In this document: positions 52,730-62,588 of the stretch, one piece after another | How positions within the stretch are numbered: position 1 is the stretch's first letter | How the letters are laid out: every line of letters begins with the position of its first letter | From: Sphingopyxis fribergensis | GTDB taxonomy: Bacteria; Pseudomonadota; Alphaproteobacteria; Sphingomonadales; Sphingomonadaceae | Assembly (NCBI RefSeq): GCF_000803645.1 | Contig: NZ_CP009122.1 | Location: 2,146,501-2,210,500, forward strand | Length of the DNA: 64,000 nucleotides | Direction of reading: 5' to 3' | Program-made: the position numbers and the translations under genes | Notes under the pieces: generated by a model | The model's input: only the letters and a program-made list of their open reading frames with translations | What the model was told of the DNA's origin: nothing | The model's database searches: none

Positions 52730-53377
52730 TTACCAGCGCAAGAAGCGCGGCAAGAGCAGGCGCCCGGCGATCCCCAAAACAGGCACCGCCGACGCATGCC
52801 AGAGCGTGATATGAACAAGGTCGTCGCTCGAGCAGAGCAGCGCGATGATCGTTGCTCCCGCCGCCCCCGCCGCGATCCCGATCACCCAACCTGCCCGTGT
52901 CGGCGAGGTCGGCGCGCCCGCCCTGAGCCACAGGAACAGCGCGGCGCCGACACCCAGCCCCGCAACCACGCCTTGGACGAGGCACTGTCCGTCGAAGCCG
53001 CGATGCGCCGTCTCGGCCGCGGCGTGACCACCGCCGAAAAATACGAACAGCGCCGCGAACGGCAGCGCCAAAAGCGCCCCGACCGCCCAGCGCCAGCCGC
53101 CATAGTCGCGCCCGACGCCCGGCAAACCCATGCGGAGCGCGCTCCATGCCGCCGCGATACCCGCGGCAGCGATGAGCCAGAAGGTGAGCATCGAAACCGG
53201 CGGCATCGCGCCCTCGGCAAGGTCATGCCGCGCCCCGAACAGCGCGACCAAGGCGGCGCCGACGCCTAGCCATCCTGCCGCGACCCACAAAGACCCACGC
53301 GCGACGCGCCGCGGGCGCACCGGTTTCAGATCGCCTGCCAGCCCGTCGATCAGATCGTCGATCGATGCGTCGTTCAT
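52730..53377 (-). CDS. nrsF: Membrane anti-sigma factor NrsF (DUF1109)
   Basis: 215-residue membrane protein with a short cytoplasmic N-terminus and about six helices (residues ~29-47, 62-80, 98-115, 133-150, 163-182, 197-209). In Caulobacter, NrsF holds SigF inactive and releases it on heavy-metal stress. It has exactly two cysteines, C132 and C182, which correspond by position to the pair reported important in Caulobacter (C131/C181, from memory). Starts 1 bp after sigF, so it is the last gene of the bufferin operon. Confidence 0.88.
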   Translation of the reverse strand: MNDASIDDLIDGLAGDLKPVRPRRVARGSLWVAAGWLGVGAALVALFGARHDLAEGAMPPVSMLTFWLIAAAGIAAAWSALRMGLPGVGRDYGGWRWAVGALLALPFAALFVFFGGGHAAAETAHRGFDGQCLVQGVVAGLGVGAALFLWLRAGAPTSPTRAGWVIGIAAGAAGATIIALLCSSDDLVHITLWHASAVPVLGIAGRLLLPRFLRW

Positions 53378-53378
53378 C

Positions 53379-53900
53379 TCATTCACTCTCAATCAGTTCG
53401 GCGAGTTTCTTGAGCCCGCGATGGATATTCACTTTGACCAGCGATTCGCTCTGGCCGCTAATTTTGGACGCCTCTGCGATCGAGGCGCCCTCGATCTTGA
53501 CCAGCGTGATCGCCTGCGCCTGCCCCGGCGGCAGCAGCGTCAGCAGATGATCGATGCTGAGCTTTGCGTGCACCGCCTCGTCCTCGGCGCCCACCGCGGC
53601 GTCATTGTCGCCAAGCTCGGCTTCGTCGCGCTGGCGGCGGAGCATGTCGATCCAGCGATAGCGCGCGATGGCAGCTAACCAGGGTAGAAAGGCGCGCCCG
53701 CTGTCCCATGTCGCAAGCTTGCGGTGCATCGACACCAAAGTTTCCTGCACCAGATCGTCGATGTGATGTGCCGCGATCCTTCGCGCAAAATAGCGCGTCA
53801 GCCATTGGCGGCTGTCGACGAGCAGCGCGCGATAGGCCGCGCGATCCCCCCGCTGTGATGCGGCCATCAAGCGCGCCAGCGAAGGTTCGTCGATGCTCAT
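53379..53900 (-). CDS. sigF: ECF RNA polymerase sigma factor, SigF-like
   Basis: 173-residue extracytoplasmic-function sigma factor. Region 2 contains DLVQETLVSMHRKLATWDSG and AFLPWLAAIARYRWIDMLRR; region 4 contains ITLVKIEGASIAEASKISGQ and SLVKVNIHRGLKKLAELI. Its neighbours (DUF1109 anti-sigma, DoxX, DUF2063, DUF692, DUF2282) identify it as the Caulobacter SigF group that responds to heavy metals. The start overlaps the DoxX gene stop (ATGA at 53897-53900). It probably activates its own operon from the promoter before bufA. Confidence 0.9.
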   Translation of the reverse strand: MSIDEPSLARLMAASQRGDRAAYRALLVDSRQWLTRYFARRIAAHHIDDLVQETLVSMHRKLATWDSGRAFLPWLAAIARYRWIDMLRRQRDEAELGDNDAAVGAEDEAVHAKLSIDHLLTLLPPGQAQAITLVKIEGASIAEASKISGQSESLVKVNIHRGLKKLAELIESE

Positions 53901-54355
53901 TTCGCGCGCACCCTAGCAACAAGCCCGTCGAGCGAGAACAGGCCGCCGCCGCGCACGATCAGAATCGCCGCCATCGCCGCCCACAAGGAATGAACTGGCC
54001 ACCAGGCGTCGGGGAAGACGAAGATCTGGATGACGAACGTCATCACGAGCAGCGCACCCGCCGAAAAGCGCGTTGCGACGCCAAAAAGGAGCAGCATCGG
54101 AAAGAAATGTTCGGCGAAGGTGGTCAGTGGAACCGCAAGAACAGGGTCGAGCGGCAGGCCTGAAAATTCGCTCCGAAACAGGTCATATTGCGAGGGGTCG
54201 ATCTGCAGGAAACTACCCTCGACGACCTTGGTCTGACCCGAACGCCAGAACACGCCCGCCAGCGCGAGGCGCAACAAGAACAGCGCAATGCCTTCGAAAA
54301 GGCGCGATCCGGCGAGCGCGACGCCGCGATCATAAAATCCGACAATCCGGTTCAT
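53897..54355 (-). CDS. DoxX family membrane protein
   Basis: 152-residue membrane protein with four helices. FEGIALFLLRLALAGVFWRS opens with the DoxX pattern, followed by VPLTTFAEHFFPMLLLFGVA and VIQIFVFPDAWWPVHSLWAA. DoxX proteins often accompany metal and redox stress systems; in bufferin operons this protein is sometimes called BufD. Its exact role is unknown. 3 bp after bufC and overlapping sigF by 4 bp. Confidence 0.85.
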   Translation of the reverse strand: MNRIVGFYDRGVALAGSRLFEGIALFLLRLALAGVFWRSGQTKVVEGSFLQIDPSQYDLFRSEFSGLPLDPVLAVPLTTFAEHFFPMLLLFGVATRFSAGALLVMTFVIQIFVFPDAWWPVHSLWAAMAAILIVRGGGLFSLDGLVARVRAK

Positions 54356-54358
54356 CTC

Positions 54359-55075
54359 TCAAACCTTTTCAAAAGCCCCTGCGTCGATCAGCGCCGCAAT
54401 CGCGGCACCGCCGTCATCATGATGTTCGGCCAGATGCGCGATGAGGTTACCGATCGGGCAAATTTCCTGCGCAATGGCGATGGCGGCGGCATCGGCGTTC
54501 TCGACCGCGAACAACCGGACCTCCGCGCGGGGGCGTGTGATGAGCAATCCCGTAACGTCCGGAGCAAAGGCCGGATCGACGAGCGGCGCAGCATCGCTCG
54601 AGAGCGTCACAATGCGCGCCGCAGGATGACAGCGAACCGCGAGACCGAGCAGGCCGGCTTCGCACAGTCCAGCGAGATCAGCGAGCGTCAGCGCGAGCTT
54701 CTCAGCAGCATTATAGCTTTCAAACCACGCTCGTTCGGCCCGCGCCAGATCGGCGGCGAGCGGATCGGCCAGCCATGCGGAAAAGTCGGCGCCGATATCG
54801 GACAACGACCGGCGCTGCGCCCCGCCCGCCTCGATAAAGTCACGCGACAGCCGGTTGAACTCATCCTCGCCCAGAAAGGCACGGGTGCGCGGGAAACTGT
54901 CTTCCAGCGCGACGAGCCGAGCGTGCGAAATCGTGTTCGCATGAACACGCAGCCCGCGCAGCACTGCGGCCTCGCTTCCGGCGAACAGGCCGTGGGGCAA
55001 ATGGCCCGGGCCATGCAGCAAGGTCGCGATGATCGCCGCTTGGTCAAACACCGGCGGGTTCCCGCAGCAGGCCAT
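54359..55075 (-). CDS. bufC: DUF2063 protein, bufferin maturation partner BufC
   Basis: 238-residue protein with an N-terminal DUF2063 DNA-binding-like domain (VLRGLRVHANTISHARLVAL, SFPRTRAFLGEDEFNRLSRD). The C-terminal part probably grips the precursor peptide for the MNIO enzyme; DUF2063 proteins act as recognition partners for these enzymes. It starts 32 bp inside the end of bufB (55044-55075 shared), showing tight coupling. Confidence 0.85.
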   Translation of the reverse strand: MACCGNPPVFDQAAIIATLLHGPGHLPHGLFAGSEAAVLRGLRVHANTISHARLVALEDSFPRTRAFLGEDEFNRLSRDFIEAGGAQRRSLSDIGADFSAWLADPLAADLARAERAWFESYNAAEKLALTLADLAGLCEAGLLGLAVRCHPAARIVTLSSDAAPLVDPAFAPDVTGLLITRPRAEVRLFAVENADAAAIAIAQEICPIGNLIAHLAEHHDDGGAAIAALIDAGAFEKV

Positions 55076-55907
55076 CGGCTTTGGCGGCTTCTACCATCAG
55101 TGTTGCATAGTCCGGAACGTCAGTGTCCCATTCGACCAGCACGGGCTTTGGCCCCGAACGATCAAGAAAGGACGCGAGCAATTCCCAGCAACTTGTCCGC
55201 ACCGGCGATCCATGATCGTCGATCGCTATTTGGCCGCTCATGTCATCGCCGTTCACCGCATGGCCCGCGACATGCACCTCGCCGACAAGGCGCGGATCGA
55301 ATGCCGCGAGCCACGAAGCCGCATCCAGCCCGAGATTGAACGCCGAAACCTCGACATTGTTGATGTCGAGCAGCAGCCCGCACCCGCTGCGGCGGCAGAG
55401 TTCGTGAAGGAAATCGACCTCAGCCCAATCGTCGCCCGCATAGGCGAGATAACGCGAGGGATTTTCGATCAGCATCGTGCGGCGCAACCGGTCCTGTACG
55501 CGCCCGACCTCGGCCGCGAAATGATCGAGCGCCGCGTTGCTATAGGGTATCGGCAAGAGGTCGGGAAATTTGTCGTCGGGCCCGTTGCTCCAACTCAAAT
55601 GGTCCGAAACCATCGCTGGCGCGTAACGGTCGCAAAGCTTCGCAAGCGCGGTCAGTTCGTCGCGGTCGACGCCCGCCGCCGATCCCAGCGACAATCCGAC
55701 CGAATGAAAACTCATCGGCAGATGCTCCGCAATCGCGGTCAGCCAGCGATGCGGCGGCCCGCCCGCGCCGAAGTAATTCTGGGGGTGGACTTCGGCCCAG
55801 GCGGGCGCCGCCCCCTGCTCCACCGCGGCCAGCACATCGGCGTAATGCTGGGGCTTTAGCCCGATGCCGGCGCGCGCGGGCAGCGGCGGGAACAGGGGAA
55901 GGGTCAC
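55044..55907 (-). CDS. bufB: MNIO family enzyme (DUF692), bufferin maturase BufB
   Basis: 287-residue multinuclear non-heme iron oxidative enzyme with a TIM-barrel fold. Family metal-ligand positions are conserved: His68 (SFHSVGLSLG), Asp102-His103 (VSDHLSWSNG), Glu148 (MLIENPSRY), Asp181 (LLLDINNVEVSAFN), His212 and His216 (GEVHVAGHA), Asp231-His232 and Glu259 (LVEWDTD). In characterised bufferins, the enzyme oxidatively modifies cysteines of the precursor to form thiooxazole-type copper ligands. Starts 6 bp after bufA. Confidence 0.92.
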   Translation of the reverse strand: MTLPLFPPLPARAGIGLKPQHYADVLAAVEQGAAPAWAEVHPQNYFGAGGPPHRWLTAIAEHLPMSFHSVGLSLGSAAGVDRDELTALAKLCDRYAPAMVSDHLSWSNGPDDKFPDLLPIPYSNAALDHFAAEVGRVQDRLRRTMLIENPSRYLAYAGDDWAEVDFLHELCRRSGCGLLLDINNVEVSAFNLGLDAASWLAAFDPRLVGEVHVAGHAVNGDDMSGQIAIDDHGSPVRTSCWELLASFLDRSGPKPVLVEWDTDVPDYATLMVEAAKADGLLREPAGV

Positions 55908-55913
55908 GGTCGG

Positions 55914-56210
55914 TCAGCCCTTCTTGGCAACCGGCTTGGCGTTGCCCTTATGCGCGGTCAGCGTGCCGCCCATTTTCACGCAGCTGCCCGCGGGGACATG
56001 CTTCCAGGCGTTGCCCTGATAGTCGACGGTCGACGTGCCGGCGCAGCTGGTGCCCGGACCGGCGGCGCAGTCGTTCTTGCCCTTGAGCGAGACGCCATAG
56101 CATTTTTCCTTGGCGCCTTCGGCGGCGACGGCAGTGCCGCCCGTCGCGGCGCCAGCGGCCATGGCAAGGACCGCCGAGGCAGCAAGCGAAAGTTTCAGTG
56201 CATTGGTCAT
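55914..56210 (-). CDS. bufA: Bufferin precursor peptide BufA (DUF2282)
   Basis: 98-residue secreted precursor. A signal peptide ([20 protein letters not shown], cleavage near Ala30) is followed by a mature region with four cysteines at 37, 48, 56 and 77, in [33 protein letters not shown] and [10 protein letters not shown]. This layout is the DUF2282 bufferin core; in studied examples the middle cysteines are modified and the outer two pair. The frame runs further upstream (to 56276), but the Met at 56210 has GGGAG upstream and is preceded by the SigF promoter, so it is preferred. Confidence 0.92.
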
Positions 56211-56257
56211 AAATTTCTCCCTTAAATGGACGATGCGGAGGATGGCATCGTCACAAG

Positions 56258-56283
56258 TTCGCGAGAGCCGGTGCAAAAGTTAC
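56258..56283 (-). promoter_or_regulatory. SigF-type ECF promoter of the bufferin operon
   Basis: Minus strand: GTAACT (-35, 56283-56278), 16-base spacer, CGAA (-10, 56261-56258). Known SigF promoters in Caulobacter carry GTAACC-N16-CGAA (from memory), so this site differs in one base. It ends 47 bp before the bufA ATG. Confidence 0.75.
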
Positions 56284-56373
56284 GCCGAGGCGGGAGGCAA
56301 TGATTTGGCAGGATGTGCCCGATAGAATAGGGCCAGCGATCACGAACAGCGCACGAATGGAGACGGGCAAGGC

Positions 56374-57390
56374 ATGAATATTCTGCTGACGGGCGGCGCG
56401 GGCTACATCGGCAGCCATGTCGCGGCGCCGCTGGTTTCTGCGGGGCACAAGGTCGTATGTTTCGACAATCTTTCGAACAGCGATGCGGCGGTAATGGACC
56501 GCCTGGAGGCAATTACCGGCACGCCCATCCCGCTCGTCCAGAGCGACATCCGCGATGGAGAGGCTCTGCGCCGGGTGATGACCGACCATGCAATCGAGGC
56601 CGTCGTTCACTTTGCCGGCTTGAAGGCCGTCGGGGAATCGGTCGCCGAACCGATCAAATATTATGACAATAATGTCCGCGGCACGCTGTCGCTGCTTGAG
56701 GCCATGATCGACTGCAACGCCAAGACCCTTGTCTTTTCGTCGAGCGCCACCGTCTATGGCCAGCCGCAATATCTGCCGCTCGACGAAAATCACCCGACGT
56801 CGGCGACCAATCCTTATGGCCGCACCAAGCTGATGATCGAAGAGATGCTGGGCGATGTCGCCGCCGCCGATCCTGAATGGCGGATCGCGATCCTGCGCTA
56901 TTTCAACCCGGTGGGCGCACACGACAGCGGCCTGATCGGTGAAAATCCGAACGGCATTCCGAACAACCTGATGCCCTTCATCAGCCGCGTCGCCGCCGGA
57001 CGGCTGAGCGAACTGTCGGTGTTCGGGAACGATTACGACACCCCCGACGGGACCGGGGTGCGCGATTATATCCATGTCGTCGACCTGGCCGACGGCCATG
57101 TCGCCGCGCTCGAGGCGATCACGAAGACCGACCAGTCGCTGTCGACGTGGAACCTCGGCACTGGAACGGGTTATTCGGTGCTCGACATGGTCGAGGCGTT
57201 TTCGCGTGTGAACGGCGTGCCCGTGCCCTATCGCATCGCGCCGCGCCGCGACGGCGATGTCGCAAGCTGCTTTGCCAGCCCCGAACGCGCCGCGAACGAG
57301 CTCGGCTGGACTGCGGAGCGCGACCTCGACGCGATGTGCGCGTCGAGCTGGAATTTCGAACGTACGCTCGCCGGGCGCAACGCCGACTAG
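56374..57390 (+). CDS. galE: UDP-glucose 4-epimerase GalE
   Basis: 338-residue epimerase interconverting UDP-glucose and UDP-galactose for surface polysaccharides. Seen: ILLTGGAGYIGSHVAAPLVS (NAD loop), NPYGRTKLMIEEML with the YxxxK catalytic pair, and YDTPDGTGVRDYIHVVDLAD, the GalE signature. It is divergent from bufA across 163 bp and ends overlapping the convergent TMEM165-family gene by 4 bp. Confidence 0.93.
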   Translation: MNILLTGGAGYIGSHVAAPLVSAGHKVVCFDNLSNSDAAVMDRLEAITGTPIPLVQSDIRDGEALRRVMTDHAIEAVVHFAGLKAVGESVAEPIKYYDNNVRGTLSLLEAMIDCNAKTLVFSSSATVYGQPQYLPLDENHPTSATNPYGRTKLMIEEMLGDVAAADPEWRIAILRYFNPVGAHDSGLIGENPNGIPNNLMPFISRVAAGRLSELSVFGNDYDTPDGTGVRDYIHVVDLADGHVAALEAITKTDQSLSTWNLGTGTGYSVLDMVEAFSRVNGVPVPYRIAPRRDGDVASCFASPERAANELGWTAERDLDAMCASSWNFERTLAGRNAD

Positions 57391-58142: not shown

Positions 58143-58350
58143 ATGACGTGGGTGCGTTAGACGGCTTGGGGCGTTCTGACAAGTCTGAAGCGGCAGCCGC
58201 AGCCTCGTCGGATTTCGCGATATCGGCGTCCATCGCCTTCGCGCGCGCCTCGATCTCCTTGGCCGCCTTGTCATAGCGATCCTCGAAGCGCTGTTCGTCC
58301 TTGCACGCGGAGAGCAGCAGCAGCGGCACGAGAAGGACGGCGGCGCGCAT
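58132..58350 (-). CDS. Small lipoprotein downstream of tamB
   Basis: 72-residue lipoprotein with lipobox LLLSAC (Cys16) and a highly charged, coiled-coil-prone body (KAAKEIEARAKAMDADIAKS, residues ~28-47). No family recognised. Its ATG overlaps the tamB stop (TGATG), so it belongs to the tam operon. Its stop codon TAG lies inside the conserved GGGGAGTAG of the downstream riboswitch. Confidence 0.75.
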   Translation of the reverse strand: MRAAVLLVPLLLLSACKDEQRFEDRYDKAAKEIEARAKAMDADIAKSDEAAAAASDLSERPKPSNAPTSSGE

Positions 58351-61300
58351 CAATAATCCTTGCGATATCGGACGCTGAGGTTCGATCCGCCCGATCCGCC
58401 CGCCTGGCTGAGCAGTGACAGCGCGGGGGTCAGGCTGATCTCGAGTTGCGTCGCGGTATAGCCGCGCGCGTCGGTGATCACCTCGAGATAGATGTCCTTG
58501 GTGATATACTGGCCAGCCGCCAGCGCCGCGCCGCGTCCGACGGTATCGTCGGGACCGAGCACGCGCAGCCGGTCGATGCCCGTCGCCGACTGGAGCGAAC
58601 CAAGGGGGCTCAATCCGCCGCCGGTGCCGCTGAGCGTGTTGAGCGACGAGGCGAGTTGCACCGCCTGCAACGGCGACAGCGTCGTGATCGAATCGCCGAA
58701 CAGGATGCGTGAGACGATTTCGTCCTGCGGCAGGCCGGGAACGCTGGAGAAAGCGATTTGCGGATTGCTCGCACGGCCTGTCACACTGATGCTGACCGTC
58801 ACGGTTTCGATCGTATCGCTCGCGAGCAGGCGGATCGCGGGGTCGAAGGCTTCGCCCGTCGGGAAGGTTACCCTGCCCTCCTGAAGTTCGAACGACCGAC
58901 CGGCGAAGCCGAGCGTTCCGCGCACCAGCTCGATTTCGCCCGTGACGCGGGGATCCTGCGTCGTGCCGCGCAGAACGATGTCGGCCTTCCATTCGGATTC
59001 AAGCCCCATGCCGCTGACATAGATTTCGTCCGGCGCCTTCAGCGCGATATCGAGGCGGATGAGGTCAAACAGGCTGCCGCCGACCGCCGCAAGCCCGTCG
59101 CCGCTGATCCGCTGGCGTCCCGCGGGCGGCTTGCGCCGCACCCCGGTCAGCACCGGAACCTGCGCGGCGCCTTCGCGGATGATGCGATAGCGCGTTTCGG
59201 GAAGGCGCAGGCTGCCAGACAACAGAGCAGTCTGTCCCGCCACCTTTTCGAGCGTCAGGTTGCCGGTCGCGCGCGCGGCTATATTTTCGCTCTTGGCGAG
59301 GCGCGCATTGTCGAGCGTCGCCGAAATATTCATCGGATAACCGTCGGCCGACGCAAGGCTGATATAGCCTTTCGCCTGGACCGTGCCCTCACCGGCGGTG
59401 GCGGTCAGTTGCTCGATCTCCAGGCGGTTGCCTGTGAAGCGGCCGTTGACGACCATCTTGGTCAGCCGCGTGCCATAGGTCTGGTTTTCGTACACCATAT
59501 CCTTGCCGCGCACGACGCCCTGCAGGCACGGATCGGCGACGCTGCAGCTGAAATCGGCGGCGACCGCGACCGGCCCCGAGACATGCTGGGTGGCTGGGCC
59601 AAAGAAGGAATAGAGCGTGTCGGCGGGACCATTGTAGCGGATGCCGCCGCCAAGCGGCGCGGCCATCAACCGTTCGGTCCATGTGCCGGCACCGGCGCCC
59701 AGCGGGCGCAGCGAGGCTTGCACGCGCCCGATCACGCTGCCGCGCTTGCGCATCACCGCGCGGGCTTCGCCGCCGTCGGCAAGCAGTTTTCCGGCAAAAT
59801 TGACGTCGACCGGCTGGCTGACCGACGCTGCGGTGGTGCGCGTGAAGTCGGTGATCGTCAGCCGCGCGTCGGCGCGCGGGAAGCTGTCCGAATTGGCCTG
59901 CTCGAAATCGAAACTGCCCGTTGCACGGCCGCCAAGGCCCATGTCGGGATAGACGGCGTTGAGGATCGCCATGTTCACGCGCTCGAGCCGGCTCTGGACC
60001 ATGATGCCGTCGCCGAACCGTCCGGCAACGCGCGCGCTGCTGCCGCGGCCGAGGCTGATATTGGTCGGCAGCAATTCGTAACCGTCGGCACCGGGAATGA
60101 TGCGCGCGGGCGTTGTCGTGCGAAAGTTGATCCCTGTCGCACGCCCTTGCACCGCCGCGCGCCAGAGTTTGGGCTGGAGGTCAGCATTCGCGGCGATACG
60201 GAACGGCACGCCGCTGGTGCCCTCGACAAGTGCCTGCGCCTTGCCGCTGCCGCCCCGATAGTCGACCTTCACGCGTCCGACCGCGATGTCGTAGTCGCGA
60301 ATCTGCGTGTCGGCGATCTGGATGTCGGCGACGATATGCGGCGTGTCGTAAAGCGTGATGTCGGCATCGACGACTGCCGAGCCAACCGCCAGTTTCGCCG
60401 GTCCGGGGAGCACGACGTCGTTCGCGCGGACGTTGATCGCGGCAGCCTGATATTGCCCCGCCGCAGTCAGCCGAACAAGCCCGCCCAGCCCCTGCCCCGA
60501 CGCGTTGAGCTGACCGACGAAAGGCCCGGCGTCGCTCTTCACCAATCGTCCGTTGAAGCCGATGCCCGACAGGTCCCCACGCTCGACATCGATCGTCAGC
60601 GGCCCCGTCGCCATCAGCAACACGACGTCGGCGGACAGCGGGCCATAATCGGTATCGCCTGTTGCCGCGAGGCGATAGCCGTTCGGCGCGCCGTTGATCT
60701 TCGCCACCAGATTGGCGAGCCCGATGCCAAGCCCCGGCCGCGCGGCGGTCACCACCGCGCGCGGGTCGCTGATCGTCCCGGCAAGCTGGACACCGACAGG
60801 GCCATAATCGGTCGAATTGGCACGCGCGGTCAGCTTGATCTGCCCGTTCGGCGCATAGCTGCCCTGCCCGCCTGTGATGCGCAGTCGCGGTGCCGACATG
60901 CGCAGGTTGGCAAAGCGGATCATGCCATCGGTGCCATAGCGCACGTCGCTCGATGCCGTCGCATTGCCGCCGAGGAAATCGCGCACGCCCGAATTGAACA
61001 GCTTGGTCGAACGTGCACGGACGCGGCCGACGATCTCGAACCCGCCGCGCGGCGCGGTTTTAAGGTCGGCATCGGTGTCGATGTCGAAAATGCCGACGCT
61101 TTCGATACGATAATCGTTGATCCGTCCGTCGATCGCGCCGGTGTAGAAACCTTTGGTGAGATCGGCGATGATGATCGCTTTGGCATCGATGCGCGGTGAG
61201 CGGAGGCGCAGATTATCGCTGAGGATACGGCCGTTGCTGTAGGCAAGGTCGCCGTCGAGCCGCACCACTACCAAGGTGCCGCCAGCGACCGTATCGAGCC

Positions 61301-62588
61301 CGCGAATGCGCGTGGCCTTGCCCGCGACAGGAATGACGATCTGATCGGCATCGACGCGCGCTTTGCCCGCGAGGGCCAGACCCTCGACGATGATATCGTT
61401 GAACGCGAGGCTGTTGGCGTTCGCCTGATATTCGACCGTTGGCTGCGCGAAAGCGCCATCGAGCGTCGCCGTCGCGCGGAGCCCATTGGCGCGTATGGCG
61501 GGCGCGATCGCGCCCGGCCGCAAGATATTGACCGCGAGTTGCAGCCCCTCGTAGCGACTGGCGCCAAGATCGATCCCGCCGCTGATCCCGAGCTGGGCGG
61601 CATCCGACGAGAGCCGGCCGTCGATGGCCGCCTTGCGCTCGTTCAATCGCGCGGTGAGGTCGATCGCGGTTTCGGTGCCCAAAATCTCGGCTACCGGGCC
61701 ATCGGCGAACAGCCGCGAAGCCTGCGCCGCCCCCTTGGCGCTAAACGTCCCGTCTCGCCCCGTCAGCGCAACGCGGGCTAGCGGCGCGGTGCCGAGGTTT
61801 GCGGTCAGATTGCCATCCCAGGCCTTCCAGTCGCCGCGTCCGTTGAGCTTGGCCGTCAGCGTCTCCTTGAACCCGCCCATCGCGGCGAGCACCCCGCCCT
61901 CGGGAGCCGAGATATCGAGATTGACCGAGAGCCGGTTTGCCTCGGGCACGGCATCGAGCACGATCTTCAGCGCGTCGCCCCGCCCGCCGCCGCCCGCGAT
62001 CGTCTCGGCATTCGCAGTGACCTGCGCACGGCGGTCGGCGATCGCGATCTTGCCGTTCAGCCTTGCAACCTGGCGCTCGCCCGCAACCGGCGGTTCGACG
62101 ATGAAACGGTCGACGCGCACCAACCCGACGTCGATATCGAGATCGGGAAGCAGCGGCTCGCCGGTGTCGGGAACGACCTTAAACTCAGGCAATTTCCGCA
62201 TCGTCATCGTCGCGGCGGTCGCCGAGCGGACGTCGACATGGTTCGCGAGATAACGGATCGGCCGCCAATCGACCCTGACCTCAGGCGAGGCGAGAAATAC
62301 CCCCTTGGGATCGGACAAAGTGAAATTGCGGATGATCATCTGGCCATAGAGCGACCCGTCGAGCCGTCCGATGCCGATCTTCATCCCGTTCTCGAATTCA
62401 TATTTCTCGATCTGGGTGACGACGAAGCGACGCCCCGCGTCGCTGTTGAGCCCGACAAGGAACAGCGCAAAAAGCAGCATCAGCCCAAGCAGGCTCAGCC
62501 CGATCCACCGCAATAGCGTCAGCGGCCACGCGCGCGACGCTTTAACGGGCGCAGCGTCCTCCGCGGCGAAGGCGTCGGGTTCGGCCAT
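58350..62588 (-). CDS. tamB: Translocation/assembly module protein TamB
   Basis: 1412-residue AsmA-like lipid-transport protein linking the inner and outer membranes with TamA. A single N-terminal anchor helix (about residues 22-48, LTLLRWIGLSLLGLMLLFAL) is followed by long beta-rich repeats with many GxL/DG turns. The C-terminal DUF490 domain (SGMGLESEWKADIVLRGTTQ, GRASNPQIAFSSVPGLPQDE, IVSRILFGDS) ends SLTPALSLLSQAGGSGGSN. Its ATG overlaps the tamA stop by one base (62588). It normally carries phospholipids to the outer membrane. Confidence 0.9.
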   Translation of the reverse strand: MAEPDAFAAEDAAPVKASRAWPLTLLRWIGLSLLGLMLLFALFLVGLNSDAGRRFVVTQIEKYEFENGMKIGIGRLDGSLYGQMIIRNFTLSDPKGVFLASPEVRVDWRPIRYLANHVDVRSATAATMTMRKLPEFKVVPDTGEPLLPDLDIDVGLVRVDRFIVEPPVAGERQVARLNGKIAIADRRAQVTANAETIAGGGGRGDALKIVLDAVPEANRLSVNLDISAPEGGVLAAMGGFKETLTAKLNGRGDWKAWDGNLTANLGTAPLARVALTGRDGTFSAKGAAQASRLFADGPVAEILGTETAIDLTARLNERKAAIDGRLSSDAAQLGISGGIDLGASRYEGLQLAVNILRPGAIAPAIRANGLRATATLDGAFAQPTVEYQANANSLAFNDIIVEGLALAGKARVDADQIVIPVAGKATRIRGLDTVAGGTLVVVRLDGDLAYSNGRILSDNLRLRSPRIDAKAIIIADLTKGFYTGAIDGRINDYRIESVGIFDIDTDADLKTAPRGGFEIVGRVRARSTKLFNSGVRDFLGGNATASSDVRYGTDGMIRFANLRMSAPRLRITGGQGSYAPNGQIKLTARANSTDYGPVGVQLAGTISDPRAVVTAARPGLGIGLANLVAKINGAPNGYRLAATGDTDYGPLSADVVLLMATGPLTIDVERGDLSGIGFNGRLVKSDAGPFVGQLNASGQGLGGLVRLTAAGQYQAAAINVRANDVVLPGPAKLAVGSAVVDADITLYDTPHIVADIQIADTQIRDYDIAVGRVKVDYRGGSGKAQALVEGTSGVPFRIAANADLQPKLWRAAVQGRATGINFRTTTPARIIPGADGYELLPTNISLGRGSSARVAGRFGDGIMVQSRLERVNMAILNAVYPDMGLGGRATGSFDFEQANSDSFPRADARLTITDFTRTTAASVSQPVDVNFAGKLLADGGEARAVMRKRGSVIGRVQASLRPLGAGAGTWTERLMAAPLGGGIRYNGPADTLYSFFGPATQHVSGPVAVAADFSCSVADPCLQGVVRGKDMVYENQTYGTRLTKMVVNGRFTGNRLEIEQLTATAGEGTVQAKGYISLASADGYPMNISATLDNARLAKSENIAARATGNLTLEKVAGQTALLSGSLRLPETRYRIIREGAAQVPVLTGVRRKPPAGRQRISGDGLAAVGGSLFDLIRLDIALKAPDEIYVSGMGLESEWKADIVLRGTTQDPRVTGEIELVRGTLGFAGRSFELQEGRVTFPTGEAFDPAIRLLASDTIETVTVSISVTGRASNPQIAFSSVPGLPQDEIVSRILFGDSITTLSPLQAVQLASSLNTLSGTGGGLSPLGSLQSATGIDRLRVLGPDDTVGRGAALAAGQYITKDIYLEVITDARGYTATQLEISLTPALSLLSQAGGSGGSNLSVRYRKDY

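Follow-up and report, generated by a model that had tools for sequence, protein, structure and literature searches.

The window analysed here, a stretch of 64,000 nucleotides from Sphingopyxis fribergensis (contig NZ_CP009122.1 of assembly GCF_000803645.1, positions 2,146,501 to 2,210,500), holds a six-gene bufferin operon, bufA, bufB, bufC, doxX, sigF and nrsF, tightly packed on the minus strand at window positions 52730-56210, together with two SigF-type promoter sites, P1 before bufA and P2 inside bufC (Table 1). All six products match Pfam families above the curated cut-offs, and such an operon is far beyond chance, since further Sphingopyxis loci repeat this order of six genes. The original prediction of a minus-strand bufferin operon with its own SigF and NrsF is borne out by Pfam and by the coordinates, including the four cysteines of BufA (37, 48, 56 and 77), the two of NrsF (132 and 182) and the 32 bp overlap between bufC and bufB, the latter if bufC is counted from its first ATG. 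Its range, 52730..56290, was right for the genes up to 56210, but 56211-56290 is promoter region.

Table 1. The bufferin operon, its two SigF-type sites and the flanking gene, in window coordinates.
Feature	Position	Strand	Description
P1	56258..56283	-	SigF-type site GTAACT-N16-CGAA, 73 bp upstream of bufA ATG
bufA	55914..56210	-	Bufferin precursor, 98 aa; DUF2282 E 2.8e-24
bufB	55044..55907	-	MNIO-family bufferin maturase, GTG start, 287 aa; PF05114 (MbnB_TglH_ChrH) E 1.1e-90
bufC	54359..55075	-	DUF2063 partner protein, 238 aa; PF09836 E 1.9e-13
P2	54425..54450	-	SigF-type site GTAACC-N16-CGAA within bufC coding sequence, 95 bp upstream of doxX ATG
doxX	53897..54355	-	DoxX-family membrane protein; PF07681 E 1.7e-14
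sigF	53379..53900	-	ECF sigma factor, 173 aa; Sigma70_r2 and Sigma70_r4_2 above cut-off
nrsF	52730..53377	-	Membrane anti-sigma factor, 215 aa; PF06532 E 6.3e-38, residues 13-215
galE-like epimerase	56374..57390	+	Flank marking the locus, outside the system; Epimerase E 2.8e-57

By family models, the locus combines a DUF2282 precursor with four cysteines, an MNIO maturase and a DUF2063 partner, as in Buf1 clusters, and the two-cysteine NrsF-family anti-sigma factor, with SigF-type sites before its predicted targets, is that of a SigF-NrsF (ECF16-type) system. DUF2282, MNIO and NrsF genes each occur once in the window's genome. The strongest NCBIfam support in the operon falls on BufB, which reaches 328 bits against NF050167 (MNIO_BufB, cut-off 310) and matches PDB 3bww with an E value of 3.6e-33; its motifs align to that structure, and the earlier claim that BufB carries all expected metal ligands was checked at the level of these motifs, not of iron-site residues. 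Scores under the cut-off were obtained for BufA against the BufA2 equivalog (29.6 bits, cut-off 60; BufA is not assigned to BufA2), BufC against HvfC (23.7 bits, cut-off 142), DoxX against HvfX (41.7 bits, cut-off 80) and NrsF against the AntiSigF_NrsF equivalog (42.1 bits, cut-off 300), the last being assigned at the family level only. The N-terminus of BufA is hydrophobic and, judged by eye, signal-peptide-like, and the doxX stop is overlapped by the sigF start. For nrsF the list of open reading frames gives a TTG start (220 aa), although an ATG five codons downstream is likelier. The NrsF cysteines lie 50 residues apart, and a pair with this spacing is kept in each of the 32 relatives that were read, a set from which the incomplete L074 and L077 were excluded and in which L042 is not listed. 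Among the named genomes, 20 of 21 nrsF loci belong to Sphingopyxis, and one to an unassigned member of the Sphingomonadaceae.

P1 has the same spacing as the Caulobacter SigF site, GTAACC-N16-CGAA (PMC3511200). A scan of 38 bufA copies in relatives recovered an exact upstream site in 25; one further copy, in L042 of genome G019, also has it and was missed owing to an early reading-frame start. Nine of the other 12 copies sit within eight buf loci that belong to other genera; neither sigF nor nrsF was detected in these loci, and a search within 300 bp of bufA or doxX found no such site. The remaining three are second or stand-alone copies (L039, and the second copies in L041 and L050). The stand-alone gene in G012 (L039 3060-3432) and the second copy of G020 (L041 8425-8800) show, by eye, similar upstream sequence that holds no SigF-type site. 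Separately, the conjugative plasmid pCADAB1 of Sphingomonas sp. ERG5 carries two bufA genes (L231 4815-5576); GTAACC-N16-CGAA precedes the first of them by 78 bp, and the annotation shows no MNIO gene next to the pair.

The second site is kept at its position in 24 of 26 related loci, or in 22 of 24 distinct ones, two pairs being the same contig taken twice. Where its -35 element encodes glycine, as it does in the window, the codon is GGT in 23 of 23 sequences, against 10% of 429 other bufC glycine codons, and the glutamate codon at the -10 element is GAA in 23 of 23, against 65%. The binomial value is 1e-23, with phylogeny and the two duplicate contigs disregarded. Wobble positions adjoining the site vary. 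Where the -35 residue itself has changed, to arginine (CGT, L049) or to cysteine (TGT, L050), GTAAC is retained. In L042 bufC is gone, yet the site remains before doxX-sigF-nrsF; in L041 of G020, where doxX is not followed by sigF, the site is lost. P2 would drive doxX-sigF-nrsF apart from bufABC, and we regard this putative second SigF-type site as new, the literature not having been searched for an internal promoter. The original prediction had placed sensor, sigma factor and product on one transcript with strong positive feedback. Such a transcript is possible from P1, but dependence on it is unneeded given the conserved P2; likewise, the SigF-type site before bufA makes feedback likely, but as NrsF is encoded on both predicted transcripts, negative feedback would come along.

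Further SigF-type sites in the window's genome precede the genes of glutathione reductase (gor), EgtB, a cytochrome b561/MsrP-like pair, an RclC-like DUF417 protein and a cupin, and a site also lies upstream of msrA; the gene after egtB is EgtD-like, as identified by eye. Sites at the cupin gene were seen in G000 and G005. For the remaining promoters, 25 genomes of the genus were compared, 19 of which are positive, as defined by NrsF above cut-off because sigF was not searched in every genome; a site had to lie within 300 bp upstream, and genomes without the gene drop from each count. The site was present at gor in 17 of 19 NrsF-positive and 0 of 5 NrsF-negative genomes (Fisher 0.0005), at msrA in 17 of 18 and 0 of 5 (0.0002), at cytb561-msrP in 15 of 16 and 0 of 3 (0.004; this takes in G004, where the site is 149 bp away and may be chance) and at egtB in 16 of 19 and 1 of 4 (0.04), all values ignoring phylogeny. 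Pooled over these four promoters, it occurs in 65/72 cases in positives versus 1/17 in negatives. All five close orthologues of the RclC-like gene (at least 84% identity, all in positives) have the site 55-59 bp upstream, and three distant copies have no upstream site; the protein itself scores 57.6 bits against NF040476, under the cut-off of 275.

Measured against the consensus of the positives, 37 of 648 cells in the motif columns differ in the positives (5.7%; flanks 1561 of 6952, 22%) and 47 of 117 in the negatives (40%; flanks 368 of 1248, 29%), G015 and G017 having been dropped as too distant. On a tree of Gor and EgtB the four nearer negatives (G001, G003, G018 and G022) take separate places, some of them weakly supported, and this scatter suggests separate losses. 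Among open-licence papers we found none joining NrsF with glutathione reductase and a sigma factor and none on Sphingopyxis with DUF692, and for NrsF with ergothioneine only work that is unrelated by its title; because this search turned up no such link, the gor and ergothioneine targets are called unreported. Msr genes, by comparison, recur in ECF16 regulons (PMC8315932; PMC3420878). At the msrA loci (L087, L208-L228), 21 of 23 cases show a membrane-like reading frame of 32-35 residues that separates msrA from the SigF-type site, or from its place, and may encode a small protein made together with MsrA.

The distribution of the bufferin genes is narrower than that of NrsF. DUF2282 occurs in 16 of the 25 genomes, all 16 NrsF-positive; three NrsF-positive genomes are without it (G005, G008 and G014), and six genomes have neither NrsF above cut-off nor DUF2282. 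The galE-like neighbour is common to full and bufferin-less loci. In L058-L061, L065 and L073 the galE-linked place holds sigF-nrsF without bufABC-doxX, with GTAACCTTCGC(T/G)GCGATATCGGCGAA preceding sigF, and G005, G008, G014 and G020 share this arrangement of galE and then sigF-nrsF. Such loci retain galE, the galE upstream sequence and the site before sigF; in six of them the sequence before that site resembles the one before P1, well above shuffled controls, and gave no match to the one before P2. A doxX remnant before sigF was sought in these loci and is only weakly suggested. Two further loci, L075 and L078, have sigF-nrsF with the site and no buf genes, galE not being among the genes found, and in G020 a buf operon with its own site lies about 1 Mb from the galE-linked sigF-nrsF. 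A plasmid origin was considered and set aside: in a plasmid collection, near matches to the window region were short pieces in six records, and no NrsF relative was recovered at E 1e-5, a search that reaches close relatives only, as the collection does contain the NrsF-family gene of Thalassobaculum. A second, divergent type of buf-sigF-nrsF operon, with two bufA genes and a sigF 61-64% identical, was observed in L050, L052 and L056 (G006, G009 and G004).

We assign a probability of roughly 0.7 to the reading that the window's Buf1 bufferin operon belongs to a redox-stress regulon of the SigF-NrsF (ECF16) type, with the bufferin as removable cargo. It further seems rather likely that the Sphingopyxis bufferin is an optional module of a regulon against thiol and methionine oxidation, that P2 has been selected and allows synthesis of the sensor pair in the absence of the peptide, and that the sites decay once the pair is lost.

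Building on the gene content and on the sites, which are conserved and co-occur with NrsF, we infer the inducer, the action of NrsF, transcription from the sites and the peptide chemistry as follows. An envelope thiol-reactive stress (copper, chromate, hypochlorous acid or similar) would act on NrsF via its two cysteines, releasing SigF. SigF would then fire P1, yielding BufA, BufB and BufC and, by read-through, DoxX, SigF and NrsF; from P2 it would yield the latter three without the peptide genes. BufB with BufC would modify the cysteines of BufA, which would bind copper outside the cytoplasm. The same SigF would fire msrA, the cytochrome b561/MsrP-like pair, glutathione reductase, egtB and, where present, the RclC-like gene. 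The bufferin would be removable from this system, close relatives holding sigF-nrsF and the regulon sites without bufABC-doxX.

It is conceivable, though we lean against it, that the SigF regulon serves mainly to resist reactive chlorine or other oxidants, and that the bufferin responds to oxidation or to released copper and not to the copper load itself. The target set of msrA, MsrP-like, Gor, EgtB and RclC-like genes is in line with such a role, as are the Msr genes of other ECF16 regulons and a related ECF16 pair in another genus that answers hypochlorous acid (PMC8315932; PMC3420878). For Caulobacter, copper was later found to induce sigF and the SigF regulon, and the sigF mutant is described as copper-sensitive (PMC8224329); chromate and cadmium act too, and reactive-oxygen-generating agents do not (PMC3511200).

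That bufABC-doxX entered this strain recently, by insertion between sigF and a long-standing SigF promoter, in place of deletion in its sisters, appears doubtful. Within the clade of G000, G005, G006, G008, G014 and G020, four genomes (G005, G008, G014 and G020) have galE-sigF-nrsF without buf genes and the full operon at the galE place is found in G000 only (the G006 copy was not read), a pattern that would suit insertion. The full operon, however, also occupies the galE-linked place in less closely related species (L036, L037, L040 and L062-L064), and an old operon with deletions is therefore favoured; the sister-locus sequence before sigF, which resembles the doxX end only weakly, likewise speaks against insertion.

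Several observations weigh against a bufferin operon embedded in a wider SigF-NrsF regulon. Genome-wide, the site pattern was counted 68 times in G000 against 180 for a reversed-pattern control, and 56 against 46 times in G005, G008, G014 and G020 together; as raw counts do not rise clearly above the control, the case rests on conservation. Genome G019 has sigF-nrsF, yet its sites at egtB, gor, msrP and msrA are lost, and we treat it as a counterexample because two sites are found there, before bufA and before doxX-sigF-nrsF. The one sigF found in G009 is 61% identical, and this genome has no sites at egtB and gor; G018, which is NrsF-negative and 85% complete, has an egtB site with one-base-shorter spacing. 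L056 is without P2 despite a sigF downstream, some supports on the Gor and EgtB tree are low, and phylogeny enters neither the Fisher nor the binomial values. Finally, egtB-egtD are reported EcfG targets in S. granuli TFA (PMC7083833), for which reason egtB is the weakest member of the regulon and may have dual or other control. The EcfG listing, the outer sites lost in G019 and the counts without clear enrichment would also suit an ordinary SigF bufferin operon, in which P1 alone drives six genes, P2 reflects coding or codon context and the remaining sites are read by different ECF sigma factors, for instance EcfG, which tolerates varied -10 boxes (PMC7083833). This we consider improbable, since the usual EcfG -35 box is GGAAC, genomes lacking NrsF show decayed sites at four unrelated promoters whose flanks differ only slightly more than in the positives, and the P2 codons are biased and keep GTAAC through residue changes.

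As an observation apart, the bufA of G019 (L042 3444-5613) has neither bufB nor bufC of this type next to it.

Returning to the embedded bufferin operon, comparison with the buf and sigF loci of Caulobacter, which the original prediction had proposed, confirmed the same six families (CC3254-CC3257 for buf, CC3253-CC3252 for sigF-nrsF), the shared GTAACC-N16-CGAA site and an MsrP-type regulon gene in common (PMC3511200). The NrsF cysteines, 131 and 181 in Caulobacter, occupy places matching 132 and 182 in the window, and Caulobacter SigF controls the buf genes and the MsrP-type gene, and the NrsF cysteines matter (PMC3511200). The Caulobacter sigF-nrsF genes form a separate unit with its own promoter, whereas in the window six genes stand together with a second site inside bufC; sigF was there reported not to be strongly autoregulated under metal stress (PMC3511200). 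In Table 1 of the same report, gor, egtB and an RclC-like gene are absent from the SigF-dependent list, and the Caulobacter msrA homologues are given as unchanged, unlike the site-bearing msrA of Sphingopyxis (PMC3511200).

The notion that the arrangement is new outside Caulobacter did not hold. On the mobilizable plasmid NZ_CP139716.1 of Thalassobaculum sp. OXR-137 (L233 4899-8913) the six-gene order is identical to that of the window, although 163 bp separate doxX and the sigma gene there, and no match to GTAAC-N16-18-CG[AT][AT] was found in the 10 kb read. Buf1 clusters as described by Antoine et al. 2025 likewise comprise core genes with sigma and NrsF genes, and the excerpted cluster description holds no discussion of promoters, internal or other (PMC12452194). 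In Cupriavidus metallidurans, gigPABT and rpoQ-rsqA encode the same kinds of products (peptide, enzyme, DUF2063 partner, DoxX-like protein, sigma and anti-sigma factor) and gig is induced by copper, but rpoQ-rsqA is a separate divergent unit, and, according to that work, an RpoQ-dependent start of gig has yet to be demonstrated (PMC10304878). The ECF16 pair EcfF-OsrA of Bradyrhizobium japonicum has an NrsF-type anti-sigma factor like that of the window (PMC8315932) and a regulon that includes methionine sulfoxide reductases, as in Sphingopyxis; bufferin, glutathione reductase and ergothioneine genes are not named among its targets in the excerpt, several targets being hypothetical proteins (PMC3420878). 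Clusters of the Buf1 type that include sigma and NrsF genes are thus known already, as are the same families in separate SigF-dependent units of Caulobacter. What appears new, judged from the sequences compared, are P1, P2, the bufferin-less sigF-nrsF at the galE place and the predicted sites at gor, egtB, msrA, MsrP-like and RclC-like genes.

Discussion of bufferins treats them as copper buffers. Should a single sigma factor indeed command the bufferin together with thiol and methionine repair, the signal of NrsF may be oxidative thiol damage and not metal, and the bufferin may guard against copper-driven oxidation. Species with the regulon but without the bufferin would be natural controls, and a selected promoter within a reading frame is open to test by one silent mutation.

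Two candidate sites elsewhere were discarded. The one at G000:C1:770140, with one-base-longer spacing and about 180-205 bp before a dsbD-like gene, was P1-like at first and was rejected as lying within the start of a divergent neighbour gene, read backwards; that at 4846337 was set aside as it falls within an AraC-like reading frame (named by eye). Elsewhere in the window, a minus-strand reading frame of 1412 residues at 58350-62588 resembles, by eye, a TamB-type translocation protein.

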